Virus record (IMG/VR): IMGVR_UViG_3300044627_003499 | Location: 1 to 64,000 of that record | DNA length: 64,000 nt | From: a virus | Direction: 5' to 3' (one strand) | Part shown: in pieces, positions 1 to 18,421 of the stretch | Layout of the letters: each line of letters opens with the position of its first letter | How positions within the stretch are numbered: position 1 is the first letter of the stretch | Program-made: the position numbers and the translations under genes | Notes under the pieces: model-generated | Database searches by the model: none | What the model was told of the DNA's origin: nothing | The model's input: the letters and a program-made list of their open reading frames with translations, nothing else

Positions 1-483
1 TCTAGCGTTAAGGTTAGAAGTAAAAGCCGCTGACGGAAAAATAAAAGCTATGCCATCCAAAGAACCTGCTTGTGCATAAACAGAAACTGTGTAAGCAAGA
101 CCGCTTGTAAAAGATTGCGTTGGCGTAATTACGCTATGAGCCGCAGCGGCGCCATCGTTGCTATCAGTTAGAGTATCAGCAGTGACAGTTCCATTTGGCG
201 CTGAAACCGAGTTAGCGGAAATAGTAATGTTGCTTTTCCCCCAACTCGCATTATCAAACTCCTCACTCCTTAGCAGCAGGTTCGTCACCGCCGACTGCAG
301 CGTTCCCGCGCTGTCGATGTAGGTCGCGATGCTGGCGCGGGTGAACGCAACTAAATTTTGCCCAGTTGTAGAATCAATTAAACTTTTAGTAGACGCAAAG
401 TTTAAATCAAGAGCAGCATTTTTAAATACAGTAGAGACAAAGTTTCCAGCTGTTAAAGCTTTTAAATGAGGAAGTATAAACAT
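1..483 (-). CDS. Tail appendage / carbohydrate-binding protein, N-terminal part
   Basis: The gene runs off the left window edge, so only about 161 N-terminal residues are visible, starting MFILPHLKAL. The stretch FTRASIATYIDSAG followed by NLLLRSEEFDNASW is the recurrent phage module seen at the start of lectin-like (concanavalin-type) tail proteins. It starts 5 nt after the stop of the upstream small tail protein, so the two are probably co-translated. The DNA encoding the module (about 246-345) is visibly GC-richer than its AT-rich flanks. The role in host surface binding is inferred from the family. Confidence 0.7.
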   Translation of the reverse strand, partial: MFILPHLKALTAGNFVSTVFKNAALDLNFASTKSLIDSTTGQNLVAFTRASIATYIDSAGTLQSAVTNLLLRSEEFDNASWGKSNITISANSVSAPNGTVTADTLTDSNDGAAAAHSVITPTQSFTSGLAYTVSVYAQAGSLDGIAFIFPSAAFTSNLNAR

Positions 484-488
484 CTTGA

Positions 489-884
489 TTAGTTTGTAGT
501 ATCGCCAGTAAGAATGTATTCGTTTGTTATTACGCTAACTAAAGATGCAATTGCATATTGGCCACCTGTTTTATTTGTGTTATTTCGTAAACGCAAAGTT
601 GCGCCGGCTCCAGCGGTTACCGTTATTTGTCCTGTTCCATACTGGACGATGCTGCATGTAAAACGTTTGTCTAATCCTGCTGGAATTGTTAACGTAATAG
701 CAGATGAATTTGTAAAAACAACAATTTTTCCGTTGTCATTATTATTTAAAGTATAAGCGGTAGCTGTTTTTGTTGTTACCCCAGGGGGGTTTAATTGATA
801 CGTATCCGCTGAAACACCAGGAAAATTACAATACTGCTTGTAAATAGCTGTGCCTTCAGAATTTATTAAAGGAAATTTAGGCAT
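489..884 (-). CDS. Small tail fibre-type virion protein
   Basis: This 131-residue protein consists of short beta-rich stretches. The C-terminal half (ITLTIPAGLD, FTCSIVQYGTGQITV, then a Gly-Gly-Tyr-Ala turn and LTGDTTN end) matches the generic C-terminal domain of many phage tail-fibre and spike proteins. An AGAAGG ribosome-binding site lies 7 nt before the ATG. It is the first gene of the leftward tail operon. The exact structural role is not visible. Confidence 0.65.
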   Translation of the reverse strand: MPKFPLINSEGTAIYKQYCNFPGVSADTYQLNPPGVTTKTATAYTLNNNDNGKIVVFTNSSAITLTIPAGLDKRFTCSIVQYGTGQITVTAGAGATLRLRNNTNKTGGQYAIASLVSVITNEYILTGDTTN

Positions 885-1062
885 GTGCGTACCTTCTTGT
901 TTTTGTAAGTCTAGCAGGACAAATTAAGCTTGGGCTTCTGTCCAGGGAAGACGCGTAGCAATTGTGTTAGTAGTAACAGCTCACCGGATCACTCGTATTC
1001 CAATTTTAACACCACGTTTTGATTAGTAGCTTAAAATAATAGAAAGTATCTGTGGTAACCAA

Positions 1063-2370
1063 GTGCAAGTTCGTTATATCAATGATTATGGTGATGGAAC
1101 CTCAGGTTTTATTGACTATGGTTCTGGGATTGTGGTTACTACAGCTAGTGGTCAACCCCTTCCTGTAACAACGCAATCAAACAGCACAGCAACAGATGCA
1201 TTCGGTCGGCTTCGTACGTCTAGCCCTTTGACTCTGTTTGATTCAAGCCATCGTTACAAAGACAATGGACTGTGGACTACCGCTACGGGAACTGGTGGTA
1301 CAACAACGTTTGATGCTAATGCTGGTCTTGTCACACTAAATACAACTACTGCTTCTGGCTCGTCAATCGTTCGGGAAACAACTAAGTGTTTTTCCTATCA
1401 ACCAGGGAAATCCCTGTTGGTGATGTCCACGTTTGTAATGAACGCACCGCAAACAAACCTGCGGCAACGTGTTGGATACTATGGTGTTAGCAATGGCATG
1501 TTCCTTGAACAAGATGGAACAACCATATCGCTTGTTAAGCGTAGTGCAGTAACTGGTTCTACGGTTGACACCAAGGTTGCCAAGGCTAGTTGGAACATTG
1601 ATCCAATGGATGGCTCTGGTCCATCCGGTTACACACTTGATCTTACTAAAGCGCAAATCTTATGGATGGATATTGAGTGGTTAGGACTTGGTACGGTTCG
1701 CATTGGTTTTATTATCAATGGGGAATTTGTACACTGCCATTCATTTCACCATGCAAACTTAGTTACTTCAACGTATATAACAACAGCATCCCTTCCACTG
1801 CGATATGAAATTACCAATACAAATACAACAGCTGCTACCAGTACGTTAAAACAAATTTGTTCAACTGTTCTTTCAGAAGGTGGTTACGAATTACGTGGAT
1901 CGCAGCAAGCTGTAGGCACAACCATTACGGGAGCATACAATCTAACCGCCTCTGGAACTTACTATCCACCAGTAGCTATTCGACTTAAAGCTGCTAATTT
2001 AGATGCAATTGCAATTATTACAGCAGTTGCAATTATGGCAAGTGGGGGAACTGCCAATTATAGCTGGCGTGTTAACCAAGCCGCAACCGTTAGTGGCGGT
2101 ACATGGACCAGTGCAGGAGTTAATTCTTCTGTTGAATATAACTTATCTGGTGTGTCAAGCAGTGGTGGTCGTGTTTTGGCTCAAGGATATTTTGCTGGTG
2201 GTAACAACAATCAAGTTCCTATTAATATTCTTAAAGAAGCCGTGTTTCAATCTCAATTGGAACGAGATGGTTTAACAAGCACTCCTTATGAAATCAGTGT
2301 TACTGTTGCGGCTAGCTCAAATAACCAAGGTGTTTATGCATCGATAGACTGGGAGGAAATATCCAGGTAA
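1063..2370 (+). CDS. Virion structural protein (cyanophage type)
   Basis: The 435-residue protein starts with a GTG. Its N-terminus has the RYINDYGDGTSGFIDYGSG and DAFGRLRTSSPLTLFDSSH motifs I associate with a widespread cyanophage/environmental-phage virion protein. The remainder is Thr/Ser/Gly-rich and beta-like, as expected of a fibre or capsid decoration protein. It is transcribed divergently from the tail genes at 1-884; the 178-bp gap has no promoter I can call with confidence. Function beyond 'structural' is unknown. Confidence 0.65.
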   Translation: MQVRYINDYGDGTSGFIDYGSGIVVTTASGQPLPVTTQSNSTATDAFGRLRTSSPLTLFDSSHRYKDNGLWTTATGTGGTTTFDANAGLVTLNTTTASGSSIVRETTKCFSYQPGKSLLVMSTFVMNAPQTNLRQRVGYYGVSNGMFLEQDGTTISLVKRSAVTGSTVDTKVAKASWNIDPMDGSGPSGYTLDLTKAQILWMDIEWLGLGTVRIGFIINGEFVHCHSFHHANLVTSTYITTASLPLRYEITNTNTTAATSTLKQICSTVLSEGGYELRGSQQAVGTTITGAYNLTASGTYYPPVAIRLKAANLDAIAIITAVAIMASGGTANYSWRVNQAATVSGGTWTSAGVNSSVEYNLSGVSSSGGRVLAQGYFAGGNNNQVPINILKEAVFQSQLERDGLTSTPYEISVTVAASSNNQGVYASIDWEEISR

Positions 2371-2405
2371 GCTTTGGTAAACTAGATAGATAAAGGTATT
2401 TGACT

Positions 2406-2960
2406 ATGTATACTCCCGGTCCTCAACAGTATCAAGTTGCTGAAACTCCCCAGGCTCAACCGGTTCCTCAGCCTCAGGACAAACCTAAAGCTCCTACTAA
2501 ATCCAAGGCCGGTGGTGATGTGGGTGCATTCATCCAGCAGTGCATTTCACTTTGCGCTTACCTCAAGGAACTTGAAACCCAATCACATTTAATTCATCTC
2601 AACTACGAGGGATCAAACTTCCTTGGGGTCCATGCATTCCTGAAGGATCAATACGAGGCTCACCTGGAGCAGTTTGATACCCTTGCTGAGTTTGTTCGCA
2701 GCATGGACTACTTGATGCCAATGTGTGGTTGTGGGCTTAAAGATGCTGCTCCTCCCATGCAGGCAGTGACTTCCTACAAAGGCGCTGACATGCTTGGCGT
2801 GTACTACAAGAACCTTGAGGAGCTGGGCATGAAAGCCAAGAAGCTTGAGCCGGTAGCACAAAAGGTTGGGGCAATTGACATCCAAAACTACATGGCTGAC
2901 CTTGTTGGCCAGGCATTTAAAGCTGCTTGGTTTGTTAAAGCGGTACTTAGGTCTTCTTGA
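2406..2960 (+). CDS. Dps/ferritin-like protein with altered ferroxidase site
   Basis: Residues 60-100 match the Dps signature: H64, the NYEGSNFLGVH segment with H76 twelve residues later, then D91-T-L-A-E95. In E. coli Dps the residue four after the second His is an iron-ligand Asp; here it is Lys (K80). A Pro/Gln/Lys-rich N-terminal tail of about 35 residues could bind DNA. ATG 2406 is chosen because AAAGG (2392-2396) is spaced 9 nt from it; a TTG at 2400 is in frame. The predicted role is DNA binding or iron/redox protection. The fold call is firm, activity doubtful. Confidence 0.7.
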   Translation: MYTPGPQQYQVAETPQAQPVPQPQDKPKAPTKSKAGGDVGAFIQQCISLCAYLKELETQSHLIHLNYEGSNFLGVHAFLKDQYEAHLEQFDTLAEFVRSMDYLMPMCGCGLKDAAPPMQAVTSYKGADMLGVYYKNLEELGMKAKKLEPVAQKVGAIDIQNYMADLVGQAFKAAWFVKAVLRSS

Positions 2961-3405
2961 ATTTCTGCCCTGGGATAACTGGTTGCATTACAGCATCGTA
3001 ATGTGACCAGCCAAGCTTTAAACGTCGTTCAATAGTTTGGCGTTTAAGTCCTGTTTCTAATGCCCATTCTTTAACTGTTTGGCATTTGCCGTCAATCGTA
3101 ATAGAAATACACATTGAACGATTTCTATTTTGTTCGGTACGTGTTGCCCACCTGCAATTATCTGGGCAATAGTCTCCTGTTGAGCTAATGCGTTCAATTG
3201 AATAATTAGGGCCCGGCCTTTCACCCATGTCTTTTAAAAAATTTTCAAACACAGTCCACCGGCTGCAAACTTTTATCCCTTTTGCGCCGTAATTTTCATA
3301 CGCTTTTGTATTTGAATTTTGACAACGGGTTTTCATATTATGCCAAGTAGAATGAGTCAATGAACGCTTACTATTTAAAGAATGGCCGTGACGTTGGGTG
3401 CTCAT
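2947..3405 (-). CDS. HNH endonuclease (NUMOD-type C-terminus), freestanding
   Basis: About 152 residues. The THSTWHNMKTRCQNSNTKAY segment, YGAKGIKVCSRW, YSIERISSTGDYCPDNCRWA and TEQNRNR form the compact HNH fold common in phage homing endonucleases. The C-terminal 45 residues look like a helix-turn-helix recognition module. The reading frame is open up to 3435, but the in-frame ATG at 3405 gives the usual family N-terminus. It overlaps the 3' end of the Dps-like gene by 14 bp on the opposite strand. Predicted mobile endonuclease. Confidence 0.75.
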   Translation of the reverse strand: MSTQRHGHSLNSKRSLTHSTWHNMKTRCQNSNTKAYENYGAKGIKVCSRWTVFENFLKDMGERPGPNYSIERISSTGDYCPDNCRWATRTEQNRNRSMCISITIDGKCQTVKEWALETGLKRQTIERRLKLGWSHYDAVMQPVIPGQKFKKT

Positions 3406-3460
3406 GTAAAGTTGCCGTTGTAACCATGCTAACACATAAAGCTACGTTGAGGAATGGGTG

Positions 3461-4066
3461 ATGGAATTTTTTGATCCTTCTTCTTTGTCTAATTTGCCAA
3501 CAGACTTTGGCGATGTAGCCATGAGTCGTGGACAAGCTCGTCAAATTATTGATCGTTTTACCCAGGAAGCAGTAAAGAAAAACATAACTCCCGATGCTTT
3601 TCAAGAAGGTTTGTACTACTTAGGTCAAGTAGGCCAAAGTCCTGACTTCACTCGAAGCACAATTCGCAATACATTAAAAAGCCCAATGGGCAGATTAATG
3701 CTTGATAATCCACAGTTGGCAACGCAAGCAGTTGGCCAGTTTGGTAGTTTGGTTGAAGGTGTTAATCCTGCATTAGCAGGTAAACACATGGGATTGGTAA
3801 ACCAATTAATGCAAGAAGCTAAAAAAGATAACCTGTTGCGATCCAATGTAACTTATGACGAAATCAAACGTGAAGTACAACAACCCATGTACGGCGCTTT
3901 ACAGGATTGGGTAAAAGATAAAAAAAGTAATGCAGCTGCAGTAGAAGTTTTAAACAAGTCATCTTTAGGAAAAAATATTACACCGGGTACGGTAAATTAC
4001 ATCTTCCCTAAAGGTATGCCAAAGACTGGGCTTCCTCAATACGCATTGGGAATACCTTTTAAATAG
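3461..4066 (+). CDS. Unknown helical virion-associated protein
   Basis: 201 residues, mostly helical, with no domain I recognise. ATG 3461 is preferred over the adjacent GTG 3458 because GAGG (3449-3452) is correctly spaced. Its stop abuts the stop of the convergent HNH gene at 4067. Being among structural genes it may be a virion or assembly protein, but that is inference from position. Confidence 0.6.
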   Translation: MEFFDPSSLSNLPTDFGDVAMSRGQARQIIDRFTQEAVKKNITPDAFQEGLYYLGQVGQSPDFTRSTIRNTLKSPMGRLMLDNPQLATQAVGQFGSLVEGVNPALAGKHMGLVNQLMQEAKKDNLLRSNVTYDEIKREVQQPMYGALQDWVKDKKSNAAAVEVLNKSSLGKNITPGTVNYIFPKGMPKTGLPQYALGIPFK

Positions 4067-4315
4067 TTAATCACTCCAGTGCTCAAGCCGGTGGCAGTTA
4101 CAGCATAGCGGAATACATTTATTGATTTCTTCTTGGATACGGCGCCAGGCGTATCCGTGATTGACCATACTTGACACATTTAAATCCTTGTCACCTACAT
4201 GGTGAAACTCAAGGACTCTATAGTCTTCCAGGGCGCAATGCTCACACTTAAGAGTCTTCTTGTATTCCAAGAATCTCTTTCGGTTTTCTTGTAACCTGCG
4301 TGTACTTGTTGACAC
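4067..4315 (-). CDS. Small HNH endonuclease
   Basis: 82 residues with a classical HNH core: CEHC zinc knuckle, VLEFHHV (the H-H pair), LNVSSMV, then CIPLCCNCHRLEH. Length is typical of minimal phage HNH nucleases. It abuts the 3' end of the preceding plus-strand gene exactly (4066/4067) and lies just downstream of the tRNA-like sequence on its own strand. Predicted to nick or cut DNA as a mobile element. Confidence 0.8.
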   Translation of the reverse strand: MSTSTRRLQENRKRFLEYKKTLKCEHCALEDYRVLEFHHVGDKDLNVSSMVNHGYAWRRIQEEINKCIPLCCNCHRLEHWSD

Positions 4316-4344
4316 TAAAGCCTACGCATTCTTTTTCAGTATAA

Positions 4345-4416
4345 AGGGTCGTGCCGGAATCGAACCGACTTTCAATGTGTGTTGTCCACCCGTCCTTACC
4401 AATAGACTACCGACCC
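4345..4416 (-). tRNA. tRNA-like gene, anticodon unclear, probably degenerate
   Basis: The minus strand folds into a near-cloverleaf of 72 nt. Six of seven acceptor pairs form (position 7/66 mismatched). A good D-arm with GGTAA in the loop is present, and the T-arm is perfect (GTCGG, loop TTCGATT, CCGGC). The anticodon arm is poor: GTG/CAC encloses GACAACA, which lacks U33 and gives no convincing anticodon. No CCA is encoded. It could be a decaying tRNA or a tRNA mimic. Confidence 0.55.
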
Positions 4417-4457
4417 AGCCCGATGCAAAGCAGAGCGGGAACATAAACATCATACAC

Positions 4458-4486
4458 AAAAAATCCCGGCTACTCACACCGGGATT
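4458..4486 (-). terminator. Rho-independent terminator
   Basis: On the minus strand AATCCCGG, a 9-nt loop and CCGGGATT form an 8-bp stem followed by six T. It should end the leftward transcript coming from about 7.5 kb. Confidence 0.85.
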
Positions 4487-4574
4487 AAGCATCCTTACCG
4501 CTGTTGCAAGCCCTACCGTAAGGTGTCAGGGTTTCGACTATTACCCTGGAGCTTTAGTGCTCTCCGATACACTA
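4458..4574 (-). ncRNA. Candidate structured RNA ending in the terminator
   Basis: Directly after the stop of the Lys-rich gene the minus strand carries three back-to-back hairpins: GAGC/GCTC (4549-4562), CAGGGT/ACCCTG (4527-4548) and CCTTAC/GTAAGG (4493-4523). The terminator hairpin follows. There is no ORF. It may be a 3'-UTR-derived small RNA or simply a structured 3' end. No known family is recognised. Confidence 0.35.
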
Positions 4575-4724
4575 TCACTTTTTCTTTTTTGCTGCGGCAT
4601 CTTTTTTCTTGGCAATCATCTCTTTGAACTTATCGCGAGCCTCAGTTTGTTTGGCAGATGCGCCACCTTTGCCCTTGGCGGGAGGTACAGCTTTCTTGGG
4701 GGGAACAGGCTTTTTCTTTTCCAT
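4575..4724 (-). CDS. Small Lys-rich basic protein
   Basis: 49 residues beginning MEKKKPVPPKKAVPP and ending in a poly-Lys tail; about one third is Lys. It has no recognised domain and no clear Shine-Dalgarno. Similar tiny basic proteins recur in this genome (45974-46138, 52510-52734). It may bind nucleic acid; that is inference from charge only. Confidence 0.55.
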   Translation of the reverse strand: MEKKKPVPPKKAVPPAKGKGGASAKQTEARDKFKEMIAKKKDAAAKKKK

Positions 4725-4757
4725 GATAATCAGGAATCTTTATTAAGTATAAGCGGG

Positions 4758-4964
4758 TTATTTGTTTTTGTAACGCTTGGCTGCGCGAGCTGCACGCCCG
4801 GCTTTTTCCGCTGCTTCTGTGTTGGGAACAAACTGTTTTCCTTTTTGGCTACCAGTGCGTTTCTTTTGGTCGGTCTCCTGACGTTCTTCTTTTGACAGTG
4901 AGGCCCAGGCGCTTTCTGGTAGGTAGCGTTTTGTATATCCTTTTTGAATTGCTTTGTCTGCCAT
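4758..4964 (-). CDS. DUF5872-like protein, C-terminal segment
   Basis: 68 residues: KRYLPESAWASLSKEER, then KKRTGSQKGKQFVPNT, then an Ala/Arg/Lys tail. From memory these motifs form the C-terminal third of the basic DUF5872-type protein found in large viruses and phages. Its ATG overlaps the stop of the upstream segment as TAATG, which favours coupled re-initiation. The N-terminal and central thirds are encoded just upstream (5275-4964), so one ancestral protein appears to be split. Confidence 0.7.
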   Translation of the reverse strand: MADKAIQKGYTKRYLPESAWASLSKEERQETDQKKRTGSQKGKQFVPNTEAAEKAGRAARAAKRYKNK

Positions 4965-5149
4965 TACTTTGAGTCTTTATATTTTTTGGCAGCAGATTTG
5001 GCTTTACTTCGTTTCTCATATTCATCCTTAGTCATCCACTTCTCTTTGCCCCATTTCTCCAGGGACTTCTGCTTTTCTCCCTTGCCTCCTTTATATCCCC
5101 CTCCTTCTTTTTCGTACTCTTGTGCAACAAGCTGAGCCTTGCGTGCCGA
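4964..5149 (-). CDS. DUF5872-like protein, central segment (no ordinary start)
   Basis: The frame encodes SARKAQLVAQEYEKEGGGYK, KSLEKWGKEKWMTKDEY and a Lys-rich end, 61 residues before TAA. It is in the same frame as the segment at 5171-5275 but separated by TAG, TAA and TAA codons. It has no ATG, GTG or TTG near its start; only an ATT at 5152-5150 or a late ATG exists. It would be expressed by ribosome bypass from the upstream segment, by a non-canonical start, or not at all. Confidence 0.55.
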   Translation of the reverse strand, partial: SARKAQLVAQEYEKEGGGYKGGKGEKQKSLEKWGKEKWMTKDEYEKRSKAKSAAKKYKDSK

Positions 5150-5176
5150 AATAATTAATTAGCCTTACGGCTACGA
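5147..5176 (-). other. Candidate translational bypass element (T4 gene 60-like)
   Basis: On the minus strand a TCG codon (5176-5174) is followed at once by TAG, which opens a 5-bp hairpin TAGCC-GTAA-GGCTA with a GNRA-type loop. An AT-rich spacer and a second TCG (5149-5147) follow. Joining the two TCG codons removes 27 nt and restores the protein string GEWS-ARKAQ, which is the family consensus as I recall it. T4 gene 60 has the same layout: matched take-off and landing codons, a stop right after take-off, and a hairpin with a stable tetraloop. Function is inferred. Confidence 0.5.
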
Positions 5177-5275
5177 CCACTCTCCCGGTTTGCCTCCACG
5201 ACCTTCACGCATGACTTTATTTTTAATGCGCTCACGCAGATCTGGCTTGGTGTACTTGCTTTTGTCTTCAGCCAT
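5171..5275 (-). CDS. DUF5872-like protein, N-terminal segment
   Basis: 34 residues, MAEDKSKYTKPDLRERIKNK to GGKPGEWS, then TAG. Its ATG overlaps the end of the HNH gene (the endonuclease stop is inside GTTATGGCTGA). A second, diverged version of this N-terminus lies on the far side of the HNH gene at 5912-6010. The natural continuation is the in-frame central segment beyond the candidate bypass element. Confidence 0.65.
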   Translation of the reverse strand: MAEDKSKYTKPDLRERIKNKVMREGRGGKPGEWS

Positions 5276-5876
5276 AACTTCCTCGCTCTTTAAGATAAAT
5301 GACTGCGTTTGTCAATACATCTATATTATCACCAAACAAACCTAAAGCTCTGTTGCATTCTTTACACAACAAACCTCTGAATTCATTGGTTTTATGGTTG
5401 TGATCTATGGCTAAAGATTGACCAACTTTAGGTGGGTCTTGGCAAATTGCGCATAAACCTTCCTGGGCTTCAAGCACTATGTCGTATTGCTGTTTTGTTA
5501 TTCCTCTGCGTTCATATTTTTTGTGTTGATTATGAAGCAAATTTTGCCCTTGTTTTTTAACTTTCTGATAGTGTTCCTTGTTATTGTTTACCCATTTATC
5601 CCAACTTAGTTTATTGCAGGCTTTGCATGAAGAATGAAGATACAATTTACCGTCTTGCTTTCTTCTTCTAAAACAATCCCAATCTAAATAATGAGCACAT
5701 TTAGAGCATTGTTTTTGACCGTCTGCTCCATACAACAATTTAAATCGACGGTTAACTAAAGAGCTGCAATCCTTGCATACGCTGTCTCTTTTTATATTAC
5801 CGGCAGAGTTATACCCTTTGTTTCCAAAATTTTCATGCGGCTTTCGGGTTCCGCATTCTCGGCAAAGCTTTTGCAT
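5268..5876 (-). CDS. HNH endonuclease of the endonuclease VII family
   Basis: 202 residues. Two CxxC...CxxC zinc modules (C5/C8 with C34/C37; C57/C60 with C84/C87) precede a recombination endonuclease VII core. The core has C142-x2-C145, the catalytic D158-H-N-H161 and C171-x2-C174, followed by a conserved LG.FGDN helix. It lies between two versions of the same 5' coding end (5912-6010 and 5171-5275). This is what a homing endonuclease that brought a replacement exon would leave. Confidence 0.85.
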   Translation of the reverse strand: MQKLCRECGTRKPHENFGNKGYNSAGNIKRDSVCKDCSSLVNRRFKLLYGADGQKQCSKCAHYLDWDCFRRRKQDGKLYLHSSCKACNKLSWDKWVNNNKEHYQKVKKQGQNLLHNQHKKYERRGITKQQYDIVLEAQEGLCAICQDPPKVGQSLAIDHNHKTNEFRGLLCKECNRALGLFGDNIDVLTNAVIYLKERGSYG

Positions 5877-5911
5877 TGGTTAGTTTGTGCTTTTCTTACA
5901 ATAGCACAAAA

Positions 5912-6010
5912 TCACTGCCCCGGCTTGCCACCCTTGGAGCCAGCCATCACCCGATCTTTGATGCGCTCGCGTAACTCTGGTTTTGAATACTTACTATCGT
6001 CCTGAGCCAT
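5912..6010 (-). pseudogene. Stranded N-terminus of the DUF5872-like gene
   Basis: 32 residues, MAQDDSKYSKPELRERIKDR through GSKGGKPGQ, ending in TGA exactly where the family has Trp (TGG). It parallels the N-terminal segment at 5171-5275 (same YxKPxLRERIKxxVM and GGKPGx pattern, different codons). It is probably the original 5' end, cut off by insertion of the HNH cassette. It could still be translated: its ATG overlaps the upstream stop as TGATG. Confidence 0.65.
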
Positions 6011-6174
6011 CAGGATTGTTTTTGTTTTTCTTCTAATATTTTAACCCACTTACATGGTTTCATACTCAATTCCCACCCAAGGGGTGGCTTGGGAATTTGA
6101 TAACTCAACCATGCAAAGTAACGGTCTAACCGTTCTTCATCCGAAGGGACTGTCCTCTTTTTGTTTGTGGCCAT
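6010..6174 (-). CDS. Small unknown protein
   Basis: 54 residues starting MATNKKRTVPSDEERLDRYF and ending in a basic helix (KILEEKQKQS). It overlaps the 3' end of the gene at 6137-6394 by 38 nt and the next start by one base (TGATG), so it sits in a tightly coupled operon. No domain is recognised. Confidence 0.55.
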   Translation of the reverse strand: MATNKKRTVPSDEERLDRYFAWLSYQIPKPPLGWELSMKPCKWVKILEEKQKQS

Positions 6175-6394
6175 GACCAAACTTCTCTAAGATCTGATCC
6201 ATGGATTCAACTGATTCTAAACGTACGAGAAGATCAGAGATAGTTGCAATGGTCATTGGATGTTCAGATCTGGCGGCAAACGCAAGCGCGTCACGAAGTT
6301 GCTCGGCGGCTTGATTGACTGCTTCTTTGACCTGACTGGATAAAGACATTTCAGAAGTGCGGGGTCCTCTAAGTATAAACGTGTTGGTGTACAT
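6137..6394 (-). CDS. Small helical protein, unknown
   Basis: Up to 85 residues. An internal start, MSLSSQVKEAVNQAAEQ (ATG 6349), may be the true one. The sequence is amphipathic helical throughout (EQLRDALAFAARSE, LLVRLESVESMDQILEK). No family is recognised. Confidence 0.5.
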   Translation of the reverse strand: MYTNTFILRGPRTSEMSLSSQVKEAVNQAAEQLRDALAFAARSEHPMTIATISDLLVRLESVESMDQILEKFGHGHKQKEDSPFG

Positions 6395-6423
6395 ATGTCT
6401 TTTGGACTAACCCAAACAGTATG

Positions 6424-6456
6424 AAATGCCGTATCAACTTTTGCAATACGGCATTT
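6424..6456. repeat. Perfect 11-bp inverted repeat between genes
   Basis: AAATGCCGTAT (6424-6434) and ATACGGCATTT (6446-6456) flank an 11-nt loop. They lie between the methyltransferase stop and the next gene. There is no T-run on either strand, so this is more likely an RNA stability/processing hairpin or operator than a simple terminator. Confidence 0.6.
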
Positions 6457-6474
6457 ACTGCTATGAGGTAGGGG

Positions 6475-7056
6475 TTACAGCTCCTGCCACACCCAGCCAA
6501 CTTGATAGTCGTCAAGGAATGGCTCGATGCCCAGGGACTCCATTAGTTCGTAGACCAGGCGTCCTTTGCCCAGGCGTTTACCCTCGTGCTTGATGTTGTC
6601 ATCAATGACAATAAGGGTGTCATGCTGAATGATGTCCTTAGCTGCAAACAATTCCTTAAGATGATGTGCAGCGGGGGCCCAATCATCGTGCCAATTTTGG
6701 ATGTTGTAGGAATCCAGGTAGAGGAGCGTGACGTTTCCCCGTAACGTGCCAAGGAATTCAACTGAGTCGGACTCGACAACTTCGGTAAGATTACTGGTGT
6801 TTGCTGATGCCAGAGCGCAGGCTTTGGGGTCATTGTCAATAGAGATTACGTTGCCACAACGATCGTTGGCGTAGTTGTCAAAGAGGAGGGTCGAGCAACC
6901 ATCTCCGGTGAAGTTGTTCTCCTCGCGGTATGTGCCAGTTTCAATAATGGTTGGATTGGTGGTTTCATCCAGGTAGGCAAAGATCTTTTCAAAGCCTTGT
7001 GCCCTGGCGCCAAGCTTTGGTTTTACTTCGGTAAAGTAGTCGTCCCAGCTAGTCAT
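6475..7056 (-). CDS. Class I SAM-dependent methyltransferase-like protein
   Basis: 193 residues with Rossmann methyltransferase features. IIETGTYR....GDGCST is the glycine-rich SAM loop region, VISIDNDPKACALA is motif II with the acidic ribose ligand, and LLYLDSYN and LIVIDDNI are later strands. It resembles the Methyltransf_24/FkbM-type group that often modifies sugars or peptides. The substrate is unknown; a glycosyltransferase lies in the same early region. It heads the leftward operon after the Hli genes. Confidence 0.65.
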   Translation of the reverse strand: MTSWDDYFTEVKPKLGARAQGFEKIFAYLDETTNPTIIETGTYREENNFTGDGCSTLLFDNYANDRCGNVISIDNDPKACALASANTSNLTEVVESDSVEFLGTLRGNVTLLYLDSYNIQNWHDDWAPAAHHLKELFAAKDIIQHDTLIVIDDNIKHEGKRLGKGRLVYELMESLGIEPFLDDYQVGWVWQEL

Positions 7057-7062
7057 GGCGTT

Positions 7063-7200
7063 TTACAAATCAACTCGAGTATAAGAGATATCTTCGTTCT
7101 GTAAGCTTTGTTCAAATGCGTCGGCTTCAATGGTTTCAATGTCTTCCACTACGGGCCAGCCGTCAAGGTCGTAGTAGAAACGGGTGAGATTACAGGACAT
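7063..7200 (-). CDS. Small acidic protein, unknown
   Basis: 45 residues, MSCNLTRFYYDLDGWPVVED followed by an acidic helix and YTRVDL. It overlaps the 3' end of hli by 11 nt. No domain is recognised, but the operon position and overlap support coding. Confidence 0.5.
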   Translation of the reverse strand: MSCNLTRFYYDLDGWPVVEDIETIEADAFEQSLQNEDISYTRVDL

Positions 7201-7438
7201 GGACAAGATTCCAAATGGAAGATTTGGTGGTTAACTCGGTGACTAAGATGATGGTTACTGCTAGCATAGCGAGCCTTCCGTTGACACGCTCTGCATACCA
7301 GGTGAAATCATCTGGGTGAGTGGGTGGTTTCCAGAAGACTAAGTCTGGGAGATACTCCTTGACAATTTCAGTAATGATCCAGGAGGTGCAGCTGTACCAT
7401 CCACGGATTGAGTACCAGAACTTATCGAGTCCTGTCAT
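7190..7438 (-). CDS. hli: High-light-inducible protein (Hli)
   Basis: 82 residues. The C-terminal transmembrane helix carries E50-R-V-N-G-R-L-A-M58, the ExxNGRxAM chlorophyll-binding signature of Hli/Scp proteins. It continues as a hydrophobic helix with the usual TELT stretch. The longer N-terminus includes DLVFWKPPTHPDDFTWYAER. Cyanophage Hli proteins are thought to protect host photosystems during infection. It is translationally coupled (ATGA) to the small membrane peptide upstream. Confidence 0.85.
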   Translation of the reverse strand: MTGLDKFWYSIRGWYSCTSWIITEIVKEYLPDLVFWKPPTHPDDFTWYAERVNGRLAMLAVTIILVTELTTKSSIWNLVHVL

Positions 7439-7545
7439 TGTCCTGTAGTAGAGGCAATAAAGATCAGATAAGCATCAATAGCCACAACTGTCAATAGAGC
7501 CAGGAGGATGCTGGAGATTGCGTACACAAAACCGTTCGTTCGCAC
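7435..7545 (-). CDS. Small single-span membrane peptide
   Basis: About 36 residues from a GTG, with one hydrophobic helix (FVYAISSILLALLTVVAI). Its TGA overlaps the hli ATG as ATGA, a strong sign of translation. It may be a photosynthesis-related or stress membrane peptide, but no family is recognised and the exact start is uncertain. Confidence 0.45.
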   Translation of the reverse strand: MRTNGFVYAISSILLALLTVVAIDAYLIFIASTTGQ

Positions 7546-7591
7546 TTTGATAATTAGTGTGGTAACTTGAGGATAATATATAAAAGCTTCA

Positions 7592-8446
7592 ATGGTTGCT
7601 AAGATAGATTTATCGGATCCTTGGATTAAGGTCCAGGATAAGCAACCGGATCTCATGCGGAACCTAAACAGGGCCGCAACCAGAATTACGCTTAACGGCA
7701 AAAGGCATTACACCACGCCGTTACCCACTGGCCCAGCCCCGTCTGTAACTACAATCATATCTGAGACTGCTTCCGAAGCAAACAAACGGAAGCTCGAAAT
7801 GTGGTCAAAAAATAATCCAGGTGTTAAGGAGGCCGCTGCTGAAAGGGGGACTGCCATCCACTATGGTATGGAGCAGTACCTAAAAGGGAACAAAACCCCG
7901 GAGATCGCTGATGAGTACCAAGACTTTTGGCAAGGTATGCCGTCAATTCTGGATCAGTTTGACGAAGTCTTATGGGCAGAGACGCCTGTGGTTGATCGGT
8001 TTAAATTCACTATTGGCGCTGATGACGTTGCTCGCGTTTGGGGTTGCGATCCTGACGGGCGAGCTTGGGCTGGTGCTCCCGACATTATCGGTGTGGTTAA
8101 TAACAAGCTTACTCTCGCTGATTTGAAGACCAGCGTCAAACCCTACAGTCGCAAGTGGCCTAAAGACCTGGAGAAAGGGTCGCCTGAATGGCGTGATCTC
8201 TTGGGTGGTCATATGAAATTTAAAAAAACTTTGAAGCAGCTCGCAGCTTACGACTTGGCTATTGCCCAGACGCTTGGCATCAAGGTCCAGCAGGCTGCCA
8301 TCTTGGTATCAACACCGGTGCGTACACAAGTCTTTAAGATCTCTAGGAATTTTCTTAATGCTTTGCATGCGGATTGGCACAAACTGGTTGAAGAGTATTA
8401 CACGCAAATGAAAGAGTATGGTCAGCAGGACCAGGATCTTGTCTGA
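7592..8446 (+). CDS. PD-(D/E)XK (RecB/Cas4-type) nuclease
   Basis: 284 residues. The RecB-family nuclease motifs are in order: H90 in the ERGTAIHYG helix, D164 (APDIIG), D177-x-K179 (LADLKTS) and Q216-xxx-Y220 (LKQLAAYDLAI). This is the exonuclease found in many cyanophages, used for host DNA breakdown or recombination. It is the first gene of the rightward replication block and is divergent from hli. The 46-bp gap contains TTGATA and GATAAT-like hexamers with a long 19-nt spacer. Confidence 0.8.
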   Translation: MVAKIDLSDPWIKVQDKQPDLMRNLNRAATRITLNGKRHYTTPLPTGPAPSVTTIISETASEANKRKLEMWSKNNPGVKEAAAERGTAIHYGMEQYLKGNKTPEIADEYQDFWQGMPSILDQFDEVLWAETPVVDRFKFTIGADDVARVWGCDPDGRAWAGAPDIIGVVNNKLTLADLKTSVKPYSRKWPKDLEKGSPEWRDLLGGHMKFKKTLKQLAAYDLAIAQTLGIKVQQAAILVSTPVRTQVFKISRNFLNALHADWHKLVEEYYTQMKEYGQQDQDLV

Positions 8447-8545
8447 GATATAAGTGGGTCTAATGAGTCTCAAAACTCTGGGAAGTCGTAAGGTTGTCCT
8501 TGGATTGGTGGCTCTAGGATAAGTAAACAACCAAGCAACCCTCCG

Positions 8546-8731
8546 ATGGAAATCTACGTTTCCGTTGGTGAGTGGATGAATAGTCTTCAGAATCGCATGA
8601 ATAGTGCGATGGATGGGGACTGTTTTTATCTGCCCACCACCATGCATCTTCATGCTTTTTTCTTGGTGAAGGACCAGGCATTTGCCAATAAAGACTTTAA
8701 AGTGGAACTCATGCCATCAGTTAACGAATGA
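8546..8731 (+). CDS. Small protein coupled to the primase-helicase
   Basis: 61 residues, MEIYVSVGEWMNSLQNRMNS... It overlaps the primase-helicase start as ATGA, which argues strongly that it is real. No domain is recognised. The preceding 100 bp hold no convincing gene, only a 19-codon hydrophobic ORF that I do not call. Confidence 0.6.
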   Translation: MEIYVSVGEWMNSLQNRMNSAMDGDCFYLPTTMHLHAFFLVKDQAFANKDFKVELMPSVNE

Positions 8732-11358
8732 CTAATACTTCTCAGCTCTCGCTCCGGCCCGGCGAAATTCGTTTTGATTACATCCCAGCGGATTGGCCAC
8801 TCACTCCGCTTGGTGCCAATAAGGATCCGTATGTTGCTGGATGGCAGAACAAACCGTTTAGTGTCAAGGAAATTGAAAATGAATTGACAAGCGGGAAGTG
8901 TAAGGCTATCGGCCTGCTCGGTGGTCCTGTTTACAACCATCCGTACGGTTTCATCTGGATTGACATTGATGGCCCATCGGTGTACCAGCTGGTGGAAGAG
9001 TTGGCTGATGCACCTTTCATTGAGGTGATGCCGCCCACGCTGACAATTTTCAGTGGGAAGGAAGGTAGGGAGCGTAGGTTATACCGGGTTAGTCGTGAGA
9101 AACATAAGCACATCGTTCGGAATAAGTACACGTGGCACGCAGCAGTAGACAAAGAGAAGCTTGAGATTCTGTGGAAGCGGCACCAGGGTGTGTTAATGGG
9201 GTTACATCCGGAAACGGATGGGTACTACACAGCTCCAGGCCTTGGGTTTGAGTGGGCAAAGTCTGTGCCTGAAGTGCCGGACTTCTTGTTGAATGCCATC
9301 ATCAACAAAAATGTCAAGCAAGGTATTCCGGCAAAGGAAACAACGCGTGTTATCGGTCCAGGGTTTGCGATCAACAGTGTTGTGGACCTTGACCGGGATA
9401 TGAAGCTTGCCGCAGAGGCAATGTGGGGTATGCCTCCAGAGGCGGCGGATGACTATGACATCTGGATTACGGTCGGTCAATCACTCCATAATCTCGATGA
9501 ATCACTCCTTGATCAGTGGGAAGAATGGTCCAAGCAGTCGGACAAGTATAGGGAGGGGGAGTGTCACCGGCGGTGGCTGTCGTTTACTCGTGGCTCCGGT
9601 CGCAGCATTGGCTCACTGATTCACGTTGCTCGTGAGCAAGGGTGGCAGCCGTCCCAGGAGTATAGGGGGCTGAGTGTTGATGATGCGACATTAGAGCACG
9701 CTTCAAAATTATTGGCTGAAATTGATCTGGAAGAATCTCAAATGACTCCCGTAATCGCTCCATGTGCTGCATCCGATGCCACTCAGACAAATCAATGGCA
9801 GTCGCAGGAGCTGGACACAAAAAACATGAAGTCAAAAGAAGAGAAGAAAACGTCAAAGAACCCGTCATCCAGCCAAATCGTAGATCATTTGCGCTCAACA
9901 TATAACGGAGATCTGCGCTTTAGTCAAGCCCACGGTCAATTCTTTATTTATGCTAAAGAAAGTGATGGGCTTTGGTCGCCTCTCACAAAGATCGAAATGA
10001 TGGGTGACATTCGGGAAAAACTGCAAGTACTGCACCTTCCCGGTGGATTCACTTCTAATTTAATGAATGACATCTACCTGCAGCTCCAGGCGGTGTTGGT
10101 GTTTGATGATTGGTATGACGGTTCCAACTACCTGTTGTTTACTAATGGGGTGCTGGATATTGAGAAGAAGGAGTTGCTTCCGTTCAATCGGGGGATGCAT
10201 CTGACCCAGCAAATGCCTTATCGGTATGATCCAGCGGCTGGGTGTGAAGACATCATTAAGTGGCTGAAGCATGTGCAGCACGGTAGCTGGGAACGTGTTC
10301 AGGTGTTACGTGCATGGTTGCGTGCCACGCTATTAGGGCGTTATGAGATCCAGAAGTTTGTGGAGATTGTTGGCCCTGGTAAGTCCGGTAAGTCGACCTA
10401 TGCAAACCTGGCTGTGGCATTGGTTGGTAAGCAGAATACCTACTCAACAGACTTTGAGAATCTGGAGAAGAATAGGTTTGAAGCTGCAAGCTACATGGGC
10501 AAGAAGCTTCTGCTGTTCCAGGATGCGGATAGGTGGGGTGGATCGGTATCGAAGTTGAAGGCAATTACCGGTAATGATTGGATCCGTAGTGAACGCAAGT
10601 ATCAAAGCGAAAGTCAGGATCCGTTTCAGTATCATGGAGTTGTGATGATTACAGCCAATGAAGCTATTCAATCAACTGATTACACTTCTGGCCTTGCGCG
10701 TCGCCGCCTTACTATTCCGTTCGACCGTCCGTTTGAGGGCGGTCAGGCAGAACAAAAAGAACTGATTAAGTTCGATTCCAAGGGTGTACCCCAGGGTGTG
10801 TTCGCTCCCTTGCTACCAGGGTTGGTGAACTGGTTGTTGGATATGACTGAGGATGACATGCGTGCTTGCCTCATGGAAACCGGTAAGAAGATTGATTTCT
10901 TCCGTAAGTATGAGAAGCAGCAAAGCCTGCGGTCGAATCCACTGTTGGATTGGATGGATCACAAGTTGGTGTTCCAGCCGAATGTGATGACGCACGTTGG
11001 TTTCTGTCAGCAGAATCCGAATGGAACTGGTGGCTATTACAAGGACAATACGCGTTGGTTGTATGCCAGCTATGCGGAGTTCTGTCGTAATTGCAACGTG
11101 GGCATCATGTCACGCGGCAGGTTTGAGCCTTTGTTCTTGGATATTTGCAGGCATCAGCTCAAACTGAACGTCTACTCCAAGAAAGCAGCGTCTGGTATGC
11201 AGGTCTTTAACATTGCCATCAAGGAGTCAAATATTGACAGGTACTTACAGCTGCCTTCGGTTGTGGAATTTGCAGCAAACCCTGACCGTTATAAGGATCA
11301 ATACCCTGAGCTTTTTGTGCCTACTGGTGAGACAATAGAGAATGATGCAACAATGTAG
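8728..11358 (+). CDS. Bifunctional primase(-polymerase)/SF3-like replicative helicase
   Basis: 876 residues. The N-terminal prim-pol-like domain (about 1-190) has the catalytic acid pair W-I-D79-I-D81. A PriCT-2-like linker follows near 240-320 (DIWITVGQSLHNL... RWLSF). The C-terminal D5/SF3 ATPase has Walker A G549-PGKSGKS-T557, a Walker B-like LLLFQDAD and VMITANEA. The enzyme should prime and unwind phage DNA. It is coupled at its start to the 61-aa gene and at its end to speD (stop/GTG overlap). Confidence 0.85.
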   Translation: MTNTSQLSLRPGEIRFDYIPADWPLTPLGANKDPYVAGWQNKPFSVKEIENELTSGKCKAIGLLGGPVYNHPYGFIWIDIDGPSVYQLVEELADAPFIEVMPPTLTIFSGKEGRERRLYRVSREKHKHIVRNKYTWHAAVDKEKLEILWKRHQGVLMGLHPETDGYYTAPGLGFEWAKSVPEVPDFLLNAIINKNVKQGIPAKETTRVIGPGFAINSVVDLDRDMKLAAEAMWGMPPEAADDYDIWITVGQSLHNLDESLLDQWEEWSKQSDKYREGECHRRWLSFTRGSGRSIGSLIHVAREQGWQPSQEYRGLSVDDATLEHASKLLAEIDLEESQMTPVIAPCAASDATQTNQWQSQELDTKNMKSKEEKKTSKNPSSSQIVDHLRSTYNGDLRFSQAHGQFFIYAKESDGLWSPLTKIEMMGDIREKLQVLHLPGGFTSNLMNDIYLQLQAVLVFDDWYDGSNYLLFTNGVLDIEKKELLPFNRGMHLTQQMPYRYDPAAGCEDIIKWLKHVQHGSWERVQVLRAWLRATLLGRYEIQKFVEIVGPGKSGKSTYANLAVALVGKQNTYSTDFENLEKNRFEAASYMGKKLLLFQDADRWGGSVSKLKAITGNDWIRSERKYQSESQDPFQYHGVVMITANEAIQSTDYTSGLARRRLTIPFDRPFEGGQAEQKELIKFDSKGVPQGVFAPLLPGLVNWLLDMTEDDMRACLMETGKKIDFFRKYEKQQSLRSNPLLDWMDHKLVFQPNVMTHVGFCQQNPNGTGGYYKDNTRWLYASYAEFCRNCNVGIMSRGRFEPLFLDICRHQLKLNVYSKKAASGMQVFNIAIKESNIDRYLQLPSVVEFAANPDRYKDQYPELFVPTGETIENDATM

Positions 11359-11711
11359 TGGGAAATGGCCGGCATCTGATACTGGATCTATACGATTGTG
11401 ATCCAGAGGTTTTGGATGATTACCAGGAGCTTCAACGATTGCTTGAGGCTTCTTTGGTAATGGCCAAAGCAACTATCCTGCGCATTATTGGCGAGAAGTT
11501 TAAGCCGCAAGGTGTCACACTATTGGCACTGCTGGCTGAATCCCACGCATCCATTCATTCGTGGCCTGAGATTGGGTATTGTGCAATCGATCTTTACACT
11601 TGTGGCGATACCACGCAGACGCATCGGGCAGCAGAATTCCTCAAGAAGAAGTTGAAGGCTAAAACTGTAGAGCAAAAAGAGTTGGTACGGTCGACTACTC
11701 CGTTGAATTGA
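11358..11711 (+). CDS. speD: S-adenosylmethionine decarboxylase proenzyme
   Basis: 117 residues of the bacterial type 1b SpeD family. HLILDLYDCDPEVLDD is at the N-terminus and the self-cleavage site L-A-E61-S62-H-A-S-I-H67-S-W-P is present. S62 would become the pyruvoyl group, and H67 and C82 match the processing and catalytic positions. It starts with GTG overlapping the primase stop. SpeD makes decarboxylated AdoMet for spermidine; it is a known cyanophage auxiliary gene. Confidence 0.88.
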   Translation: MGNGRHLILDLYDCDPEVLDDYQELQRLLEASLVMAKATILRIIGEKFKPQGVTLLALLAESHASIHSWPEIGYCAIDLYTCGDTTQTHRAAEFLKKKLKAKTVEQKELVRSTTPLN

Positions 11712-11740
11712 GTATAGTAAAACGAGATAATTCGTCTTAA

Positions 11741-13003
11741 ATGACTAAAAAAACTAAGATCCTTTGGGTTGCTGACTTTGCAGCAATGACTGGTTTCGGC
11801 CGTGTCAGTGGTGCGGTACTACCGCGACTGAAGGATGACTTTGAAATTGTGGTGCTCGCATGTAATTGGCATGGGGATCCAACGGATGAACAGAAAGATT
11901 TCAAGATGTATCCTGCGTCCAACCGATTCCAGCAGGCGCCCTTTGGTGAGGATCGCATTCGGGAGATTGTTGAGAAGGAACAGCCGGATATTGTGTTCAG
12001 CTTGAATGATCCTTGGATTGTTAGTGAACAGTACAGGCGTATTCAAGATCTGCACCAGCAGAAGAAGTTTAAGTTCTGTGGCTACCTCACGATGGATAGC
12101 TACAACTGGATTGGTGGCATCGATGCACACATCAATGAATGGGATGCGTTGATTGCATTTACGGAATTTGGTGCATACGAATTCTTTAAGGCGGGTATCA
12201 CCAAGCCGGTCACTGTAATTCCGCATGGGTTGGATACGGATCTCTTTTATCCCATGGATAAGAAGGAGGCACGCAAGAAGCTGGGGCTGTCGGATGACAT
12301 CTTCATCTGCCTGAATGCCAACAGGAATCAGTTCCGCAAACGGATGGACATTACGATTACAGCCTTTGCCAAGTTCGCAGTTGGTCGCCCGGATACGCAA
12401 CTTTATATGCACTGCGGTACCAAGGATCAGGGGTGGGATATCATGCCGCTCTTCGGGCGGGAGATGAGTAAGAACGGACTTGATCCAAACGGTCGCATCA
12501 TCATGACCAATAACAACCAGGGGCCGCCGAACGTTTCGGTGGAGTTCCTGAATTGCATCTATAACGCGGCTGATATTGGGATCAATACCACCAAGGGGGG
12601 TGGCTGGGAGCTAGTCAACTTTGAGAATGCTGCCTGCCGTGTGGCGCAAGTGGTGCCGGATCACACGAGCACCAAGGAGATTTTTGAGGGTTATGCCCCA
12701 CTGATTCGTTGTGACCACGTGGATGTAGACACCAACATGGCACGGGAGATGCCCTGCCCCTCCGACCAACACCTGGCAGACATCCTTGCCAACCTCTACG
12801 ACGATCGGGAGTACCTGAACAGTGTGGCCGATGCCTGCTACAAGCGGGTGACGGATCCTCAATTCAGTTGGGACTCAGTTGCGTCTCAGTTTGGCGGAGT
12901 GTTCCAGGAGGTGATGGAGGGTGGTGAGCCGGAAGTGGAAGAGAAACCAAAGAAGAAAAAGAAGGAAAAGCGGGTGAAACGGACGGTTGGGGCTGCGGCG
13001 TGA
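11741..13003 (+). CDS. Glycosyltransferase, GT4/GT-B type
   Basis: 420 residues. It has an N-terminal Rossmann start KILWVADFAAMTGFGRVSGA, the linker VIPHGLDTDLFYPMDK and ANRNQFRKRMD typical of GT4. The donor-site segment GGGWELVNFE replaces the usual EGFGL. The last ~35 residues are a Glu-then-Lys-rich tail outside the fold. It probably glycosylates phage DNA, virion or host surface; the substrate is not visible. It is last in the operon, before a strong terminator. Confidence 0.8.
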   Translation: MTKKTKILWVADFAAMTGFGRVSGAVLPRLKDDFEIVVLACNWHGDPTDEQKDFKMYPASNRFQQAPFGEDRIREIVEKEQPDIVFSLNDPWIVSEQYRRIQDLHQQKKFKFCGYLTMDSYNWIGGIDAHINEWDALIAFTEFGAYEFFKAGITKPVTVIPHGLDTDLFYPMDKKEARKKLGLSDDIFICLNANRNQFRKRMDITITAFAKFAVGRPDTQLYMHCGTKDQGWDIMPLFGREMSKNGLDPNGRIIMTNNNQGPPNVSVEFLNCIYNAADIGINTTKGGGWELVNFENAACRVAQVVPDHTSTKEIFEGYAPLIRCDHVDVDTNMAREMPCPSDQHLADILANLYDDREYLNSVADACYKRVTDPQFSWDSVASQFGGVFQEVMEGGEPEVEEKPKKKKKEKRVKRTVGAAA

Positions 13004-13053
13004 GACTGGTCTCATGTGAGATGACTGAGGCTTGATTGGTGCCAAGGTGATGG

Positions 13054-13079
13054 ATCCCCTGGAAACAGGGGATTTTTTG
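13054..13079 (+). terminator. Rho-independent terminator
   Basis: ATCCCCTG, loop GAAA, CAGGGGAT, then a T-run. It ends the primase-speD-glycosyltransferase transcript. Confidence 0.88.
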
Positions 13080-13121
13080 TAGCAAGGTGTACGCATTGAG
13101 GAGGTGGAGTACGGGTAAAAT

Positions 13122-13337
13122 CCGATAAAACCCCCTTCCTATCTTTACGTGACGCACATGACACTTTCAGTAAAGTGTCATTATTTGAGTCATGGTGAGA
13201 CGGGAGTGAGACGGTGGGATTGGTGGGTTGTGCTTAGTGTCTCAAGTACAATCTCACTTGAGAATCCTTGACAAATAATGACACTTTCGGCAAAGTGTCA
13301 TTTGGATCTAATAAAGATAAACAGGGGGTTTTATCGG
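13122..13337. repeat. 216-bp nested quasi-palindrome
   Basis: The outer arms are a perfect 14-bp inverted repeat (13122-13135 and 13324-13337). Next come TATCTTTA (13140-13147) and TAAAGATA (13312-13319), offset by 4 nt on both sides. Then, after 10 nt on both sides, come two copies of the hairpin ATGACACTTT-4nt-AAAGTGTCAT (13158-13181 and 13278-13301), with arms extending towards the centre. GTGAGAC/GTCTCA motifs fill the middle. The symmetry suggests an origin, a large cruciform, or a MITE-like insertion. It ends 5 nt before the next gene. Confidence 0.75.
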
Positions 13338-13342
13338 GTTCT

Positions 13343-13678
13343 ATGGCTAGACCAGGCGCACCACTGCCACCTCTCTGGTACTTGGAGTCCCAGCTTCGGT
13401 TGTCGGCTCAGTACCCATCTGGCCTGGAATGGGCCTGTACAACGGGCTGGCACGCTAAAGGAGACATGGCCGGGAAATACGTCCCATCCACCCGCTACTA
13501 CGTGGTGAGGCTGGGGGGAGGGCAGTACCAGGCCCACAGGCTTGTCTACTTCCTGCGCACCGGCCAGGACCCCCTGGAGTCCTCTGTCATTCACGTCGCA
13601 TCTGATCGTGACAACCGCAAGGAACTGATCCTTCGTTCCAGATCCCTTACCACCAATCTCATATTGGACTCAAACTGA
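13343..13678 (+). CDS. HNH-like protein with degraded catalytic motif
   Basis: 111 residues from ATG 13343; the frame is open to 13268, but that would lie inside the palindrome. YYVVRLGGGQYQAHRLVYFL followed by GQDPLESSVIHVASDRDNRK matches the 'AHRLVYxLxTGxDP...DHxxxDxxxNR' core of phage HNH_3 endonucleases. Val-Ile-His replaces the usual Asp-His pair. It may be an inactive or altered nuclease. It is followed after 1 nt by another HNH-like gene. Confidence 0.55.
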   Translation: MARPGAPLPPLWYLESQLRLSAQYPSGLEWACTTGWHAKGDMAGKYVPSTRYYVVRLGGGQYQAHRLVYFLRTGQDPLESSVIHVASDRDNRKELILRSRSLTTNLILDSN

Positions 13679-13679
13679 C

Positions 13680-14351: not shown

Positions 14352-14393
14352 ATTGAGCGCACTTACAATAAGGAAAAGGAATTATATCAAATA

Positions 14394-15338: not shown

Positions 15339-15472
15339 TTTACCGATTGCTTTCGTTTTGGTCTCGTCTTACAAAACAAAGGCCAACCAAAACAAAAACT
15401 CAGGAACATCGTTGGTATCAGTACTGCCAGGAAAATCCACACGCTAGTTGCTGCAAAATGTATGACGTATGA
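15335..15472 (+). CDS. Small basic protein
   Basis: 45 residues, MIYRLLSFWSRLTKQ then Lys/Thr-rich and HRWYQYCQENPHASCCKMYD. The start overlaps the upstream stop (ATGA) and the end overlaps the next start by 11 nt. The tight packing is the main evidence for coding. Confidence 0.5.
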   Translation: MIYRLLSFWSRLTKQRPTKTKTQEHRWYQYCQENPHASCCKMYDV

Positions 15473-15908: not shown

Positions 15909-15925
15909 GGAAAAAGGTATTGATC

Positions 15926-17265: not shown

Positions 17266-17306
17266 CGACCTAAAGCTTTTTACTAACTTTAGATCAGGTG
17301 TGCCAA

Positions 17307-17498: not shown

Positions 17499-17534
17499 GT
17501 CAGTCAGTTAGCTTACGTAAAGTATAGCAAATAA

Positions 17535-17858: not shown

Positions 17859-17910
17859 GTTAATAAATGTTTTTCTTATTTTAACAGTTTGTTGATTTAA
17901 GCAACCTTAG

Positions 17911-18417: not shown

Positions 18418-18421
18418 GTGC

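Follow-up and report, generated by a model that had tools for sequence, protein, structure and literature searches.

Candidate UCG-to-UCG translational bypassing in a homing endonuclease cassette of freshwater S-EIV1-type phages

The interrupted gene and its cassette

The window analyzed here is a 64,000-nucleotide (nt) stretch of viral DNA, positions 1 to 64,000 of IMG/VR virus record IMGVR_UViG_3300044627_003499, and the subject is a small DUF5872-like gene on its minus strand whose reading frame is broken between two identical TCG codons. The break is 24 nt long with the layout TAGCC-GTAA-GGCTA-ATTAATTATT and the in-frame stops TAG, TAA, and TAA (5173-5150), the TAG standing right after the first TCG (5176-5174). 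The second TCG (5149-5147) is followed by GCACGCAAG, ending at the TAA at 4966-4964. A sequence-only reading of the window had described this break and its flanking codons correctly and proposed a bypass of the T4 gene 60 kind; its figure of 27 nt for the gap includes one of the TCG codons. That reading took in the proposed bypass site and overlooked the HNH gene directly upstream (5876-5268), the older copy of the N-terminal part (6010-5912), and those relatives whose site is empty. The features of the locus are listed here, with the ratio of nonsynonymous to synonymous polymorphism given as pN/pS; "filled" denotes a site with the cassette and "empty" a site where it is missing.

5912-6010, minus: original N-terminal part of the DUF5872-like gene, severed by the cassette, MAQDDSKYSKPELRERIKDRVMAGSKGGKPGQ, with TGA at 5914-5912
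5147-5912, minus: mobile cassette of about 766 base pairs (bp), missing from empty relatives (alignment to the empty L071)
5268-5876, minus: HNH endonuclease open reading frame (ORF), 202 amino acids, endonuclease VII family, putative homing endonuclease (Pfam PF02945, E = 1.6e-21; PHROG endonuclease VII)
5278-5288, minus: GAGCGAGGAAG, Shine-Dalgarno-like sequence of the recoded gene within the HNH C-terminus (from sequence)
5174-5275, minus: recoded N-terminal exon brought by the cassette, ATG at 5275, 34 codons to ...GGKPGEW-TCG, MAEDKSKYTKPDLRERIKNKVMREGRGGKPGEWS (from sequence; pN/pS 0.11-0.28)
5174-5176, minus: putative take-off codon TCG (TCG in 41/41 elements)
5150-5173, minus: non-coding gap, 24 nt, TAG first, TAGCCGTAAGGCTAATTAATTATT
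5160-5173, minus: putative take-off hairpin UAGCC-GUAA-GGCUA, 14 nt (kept in 40/41)
5147-5149, minus: putative landing codon TCG (39/41 filled versus 6/51 empty sites)
4964-5149, minus: second gene part, SARKAQLV...KDSK, TAA stop at 4966-4964 (pN/pS 0.05-0.22)

Joining the frame from TCG to TCG restores the family sequence, as the sequence-only reading had said, and the joined protein has a clear match to phrog_17747 (E = 1.2e-18). Against DUF5872 (PF19197) it scores 21.2 bits, which is below the curated cut-off of 27.5, so we call the gene DUF5872-like only. L003, another assembly of this virus, has the interrupted arrangement unchanged. When the pattern TCGTAGCCGNRAGGCTAN{2,20}TCG is searched in IMG/VR, 46 of its 49 matches fall in the cassette family described below, and the interrupted TCG/TCG arrangement is far beyond chance.

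Alignment to the empty relative L071 ends at 5913 and restarts at 5146, which identifies 5912-5147 (766 bp) as an insertion, and means that the cassette provides a start of its own and recoded versions of the first 34 codons in replacement of the severed part. The same insertion site is found in the closely related pairs L035 (filled)/L036 (empty) and L045/L050, and some filled and empty copies lie in near-identical phages. The N-terminal part that is severed in the window runs on into ...WSARKAQ uninterrupted where the site is empty, for example in L071 and L006, and the gene is uninterrupted in most relatives (...GGKPGQWSARKAQ...). The 3' end of the HNH gene overlaps the ATG of the recoded exon (5275), and the Shine-Dalgarno-like sequence just upstream is retained at the deletion edge in L091, L115, and L125, copies in which the HNH gene has decayed. 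The cassette is an endonuclease gene together with a putative bypass sequence, with empty and occupied alleles among relatives. At the position of the window's putative landing TCG, the empty relatives nearest to the window phage carry AGT, which suggests that this codon moves together with the cassette.

The window phage resembles Synechococcus phage S-EIV1, the primases being 54.6% identical over 876 amino acids, and the S-EIV1 copy of the DUF5872-like gene is uninterrupted. The carriers of the cassette are freshwater phages of this S-EIV1 type. The residue two positions before the take-off serine (codon 32 of the cassette exon) is Glu in the carried exons, whereas almost every empty gene has Gln; the change may relate to the nascent peptide or to avoidance of cleavage.

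A family of 41 elements

Searches of IMG/VR with DNA patterns and with the HNH protein yielded 41 distinct filled elements. The DNA patterns demanded TAG after the take-off codon, the HNH-protein search presupposed neither the TAG nor the hairpin, and the landing codon was unconstrained by every pattern of the collection step. All 41 have TCG as the putative take-off codon, with TAG directly 3' of it in every case, and 39 have TCG as the putative landing codon, the other 2 (L087 and L161) having TCT. At 51 distinct empty sites, all six Ser codons occur at the landing position (TCT 21, AGT 11, TCA 6, TCG 6, AGC 5, and TCC 2), giving Fisher p = 5e-17 for the excess of TCG in filled over empty sites, on sequences that are not fully independent because of shared ancestry. 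The codons beside the landing codon vary freely, as GCA, GCT, GCG, or GCC and then AGA, CGT, CGC, CGG, or AGG. The matched codons that the sequence-only reading had named among the hallmarks of T4 gene 60 bypassing are found across the family, TCG/TCG in 39 and TCG/TCT in 2.

Gap lengths are 24 nt (n = 14), 21 (n = 12), 25 (n = 7), 26 (n = 5), 20 (n = 2), and 30 (n = 1, L121), covering all three frame classes, and none of the 41 elements has a broken downstream ORF, in line with the unbroken downstream frame reported from the window. On a tree of the carried exon, gap length changes at least 7 times and frame class at least 4 times. The window gap is a multiple of three, so readthrough of the stop, or reassignment of TAG, might come to mind, but each gap has two to four stops, usually of different kinds, and gaps of 20, 25, and 26 nt shift the second half to another frame, leaving this explanation with practically no probability.

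Both gene halves are under purifying selection, with pN/pS of 0.11-0.28 for the carried exon and 0.05-0.22 for the second half. In the group with 25-, 26-, and 30-nt gaps, the part to the right of the gap was apparently carried with the cassette; pN/pS there is 0.08, a value less exposed to the objection that many insertions are recent. The HNH gene persists only as remnants in L091, L115, L121, L125, L127, L087, and L144, and is wholly gone in L105 and L128; these nine decayed copies keep the start, the gap, and the second half. The remnants consist of the C-terminal end, where the ribosome-binding region and ATG lie, and neither gene half is disrupted. That the gap and both halves persist after the endonuclease has decayed argues that the gapped gene is in use. 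Such retention bears on the idea that the cassette simply ruined the gene, making a 34-amino acid peptide the only product and the second half a relic. Three stops in the gap and the recent look of many insertions would fit that idea, but the second half is intact in every element, pN/pS is about 0.06 in a small, mostly endonuclease-decayed group, and the start site, gap, and both halves are retained where the endonuclease is not, so we regard a dead gene as very improbable.

The hairpin and the question of starts

The TAGCC-NNNN-GGCTA stem is intact in 40/41 elements, so the tetraloop hairpin at the immediate stop, noted first in the window, is a family feature of the form UAGCC-GNRA-GGCUA. 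The loops of the 40 hairpins are GTAA (25), GTGA (11), GGGA (2), GCAA (1), and GAAA (1), all of them GNRA, which points to selection at the RNA level; fourfold degenerate sites in the adjoining exon have up to 1.9 bits of variation. Folding from the UAG onward gives the hairpin as the predicted structure in 37/40. Folding-energy z-scores of short constructs run from -0.7 to -1.8, which alone is not significant, so that the case for the hairpin rests on its conservation.

A GNRA-loop hairpin indicates action at the level of RNA, and dropping TAG...TCG restores the frame at any gap length, so one might suppose that an unknown RNA reaction excises the gap from the messenger RNA (mRNA) and the joined message is read normally. 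Self-splicing RNA this short is not known, however, there is no Rfam intron match in 1-20000, and an unknown enzyme would be required, whereas bypassing has an experimental precedent of the same layout; excision seems to us a highly unlikely account. A group I or other self-splicing intron was rejected, no Rfam intron core matching in 1-20000.

Another way to use the second half is as a separate protein, with termination at the UAG and a fresh initiation at some non-canonical start close to the second TCG, in the manner of a split gene. The DUF5872 family does tolerate splits, many marine-type relatives having a break about 20 codons downstream at which stop and start codons overlap, the GTAAGG or GTGAGG of loop and stem is weakly Shine-Dalgarno-like, and ATT or ATA is in frame near the gap end in 26/41. 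However, no in-frame ATG, GTG, or TTG is present in the last 12 nt of the gap in any of the 41 elements, nor in the first 25 codons of the second half in 23 elements. The rare codons ATT and ATA are missing from 15 elements, the distance from the AGG to the landing codon shifts widely with gap length, and the invariant TCG on both sides and the GNRA loops are left unexplained. Two separate proteins are accordingly very unlikely. The sequence-only reading had named relatives with two properly started genes as evidence that would count against bypassing; among the relatives, these were absent at the putative bypass site, and such a split lies about 20 codons downstream, with a start codon.

The marine-type relatives (L364, L367, L369, L371, L391, L394, L415, and about 35 other loci) have the gene split into two ORFs after ...GGGY(TS/K). 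The junction is mostly an overlapping stop and start (ATGA, GTGA, TTGA, or TAATG), which suggests a translationally coupled two-chain protein. This split with its start codons is a within-family control for the putative bypass site, which lacks a canonical start.

Interpretation

We consider it very probable, from the comparison of these sequences, that the arrangement is a homing cassette with translational bypassing from TCG to TCG, an analogue of T4 mobA/gene 60. A homing endonuclease cassette would have inserted into the small DUF5872-like phage gene, bringing its own start site and recoded first 34 codons in place of the severed part. Ribosomes would start from the ATG of the recoded exon, which overlaps the HNH gene's end, and decode 34 codons, until the UCG reaches the peptidyl (P) site with the UAG in the aminoacyl (A) site and the GNRA hairpin (UAGCC-GNRA-GGCUA) right there. 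The peptidyl-transfer RNA (tRNA)-Ser would then release, the mRNA would slide by 20-30 nt, and the tRNA would re-pair with the second UCG, so that decoding would restart at the GCN codon (Ala of ARKAQ) in whatever frame that is. As has been suggested for T4 mobA/gene 60, cutting of the uninterrupted gene close to the Trp-Ser codons is probably how the cassette spreads, and the gap and recoding would shield a carrier of the cassette from cutting. The bypassing itself, the specificity of cutting, and the self-protection are what we infer, while the cassette and its empty sites, the matched codons, the conserved hairpin, the frame-independent gap, the selection on both halves, and the persistence after endonuclease decay are observed. 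The predictions of a gene 60-like bypass that sequences can address mostly hold over the 41 variants.

Several points weigh on the other side. L186, with the gap TAGCTATAATATTAAATAATT, is the sole element without the hairpin, yet its second half is intact and both halves are open. In L087 and L161, the take-off TCG faces a landing TCT, a natural wobble mismatch. As many insertions are recent, the selection signal in the second half may partly predate insertion. T4 gene 60 has a 5' stem-loop and a Shine-Dalgarno-like site before landing, and neither was detected in the cassette family: RNAalifold did not find a conserved 5' helix upstream of take-off, and no Shine-Dalgarno-like element was found at a constant distance before landing, where the gap end is A/T-rich. 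Finally, the UAG by itself fixes three of the five stem pairs, so that identity with the T4 stem may be convergence.

T4 gene 60 has since the 1980s been the single proven example of efficient programmed bypassing in bacteria and their phages, and one example has not made clear which signals a bypass needs. We think it likely that the cassette family is a second, independent, and diverse phage bypass class, with 20-30 nt UCG-to-UCG hops, a minimal GNRA hairpin, and an endonuclease VII-type homing gene bringing a replacement first gene part. Its members would persist after endonuclease loss and perhaps work without the 5' stem-loop and landing signals of T4. The 41 natural variants would make a rare process comparable and testable, and among them the hairpin-less L186, the landing-mismatched L087 and L161, and the length-shifted members are a ready set of natural mutants. 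Gapped genes of this type will escape gene callers and proteomics searches.

Wider searches and neighboring genes

A scan of viral contigs modeled on T4, with GGA as the codon, returned at least 120 matched stretches, of which six passed a loose reading-frame filter and none was convincing. The TCG scan, run on bacterial and archaeal genomes, gave 12 matches, judged to be chance from their number and varied hosts, and the other matches of the DNA-pattern search were chance matches in unrelated frames. Among relatives of the HNH protein at 31-54% identity, other genes show neither a duplicated exon nor a bypass hairpin, except for a 19-amino acid similarity in L206. No cultured phage with the element was found, the best HNH match there being 37% identical.

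Near the cassette, Rfam over 1-20000 matched only a tRNA-Leu:

4345-4416, minus: tRNA-Leu (CAA) (Rfam)

The non-coding stretch 4579-4460 (minus) has a terminator-like hairpin with a T run at the end and no Rfam match. Two small ORFs, 4067-4315 and 2947-3435 (minus), look by eye like homing endonucleases of HNH or AP2 type and have no Pfam match.

Comparison with known bypass systems

Our literature search, which covered few subscription journals and no preprints, found T4 gene 60 as the sole proven phage bypass. Short-gap bypasses have been proposed for the Streptomyces phage Hau3 terminase and for a 29-nt hop in Prevotella loescheii, both unconfirmed, and a UUA codon is believed to be required in Hau3 (PMC5009743). 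A link to a homing cassette is absent for both from that source (PMC5009743). The byps of Magnusiomyces capitatus mitochondria are like the cassette gaps in being short inserts in coding genes that are skipped by ribosomes and probably mobile. They differ in having mitochondrial ribosomes and 81 copies in many genes, and no endonuclease gene is known to adjoin them. Their bypass is seemingly independent of mRNA context, with landing codons often unmatched (PMC5009743). These mitochondrial elements are a distinct kind from phage bypass.

In T4 gene 60, the sequence is GGA|TAGCCTTCGGGCTATCTATAG...ATTATT|GGA, with a TAGCC-TTCG-GGCTA stem directly after take-off. Its 5' stem-loop raises bypass efficiency, and the nascent-peptide stimulator is KKYK about 30 residues before take-off; the cassette exon has K-x-x-Y-T-K 24-29 residues before take-off, and empty relatives carry a similar stretch too. 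The Shine-Dalgarno-like sequence about 6 nt before landing in T4 has a modest effect (PMC5009743). In the published account of T4, UAG comes directly after the take-off codon and a stem-loop occupies the A site, after which sliding leads to re-pairing at a matched codon; gaps of up to 56 nt leave processivity unchanged in T4 constructs (PMC11194080).

The cassette family differs from T4 in its codon (UCG for Ser, versus GGA for Gly), in gap length (20-30 versus 50 nt), and in its loop (GNRA versus UUCG). Its endonuclease is an endonuclease VII-type HNH protein, unlike that of the T4 mobA cassette, its host gene in S-EIV1-like phages is unrelated to gene 60, and it supplies a replacement for the first 34 codons, unlike T4, with 41 natural variants found. 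It is like T4 in having UAG right after take-off and the UAGCC/GGCUA stem of a tetraloop hairpin beginning there. The T4 bypass adjoins a homing endonuclease insertion (PMC5009743, PMC3014915), and its gap has been suggested to come from a homing cassette and to give protection from cleavage (PMC5009743). In both, an HNH endonuclease insertion splits the host gene, and the gap survives decay of the endonuclease, as it does in T4 where mobA is decayed. The homing endonuclease cassette is the strongest parallel to T4, and if our interpretation is true, the pairing of homing endonuclease and bypass would be a repeatable strategy and not an accident of T4.
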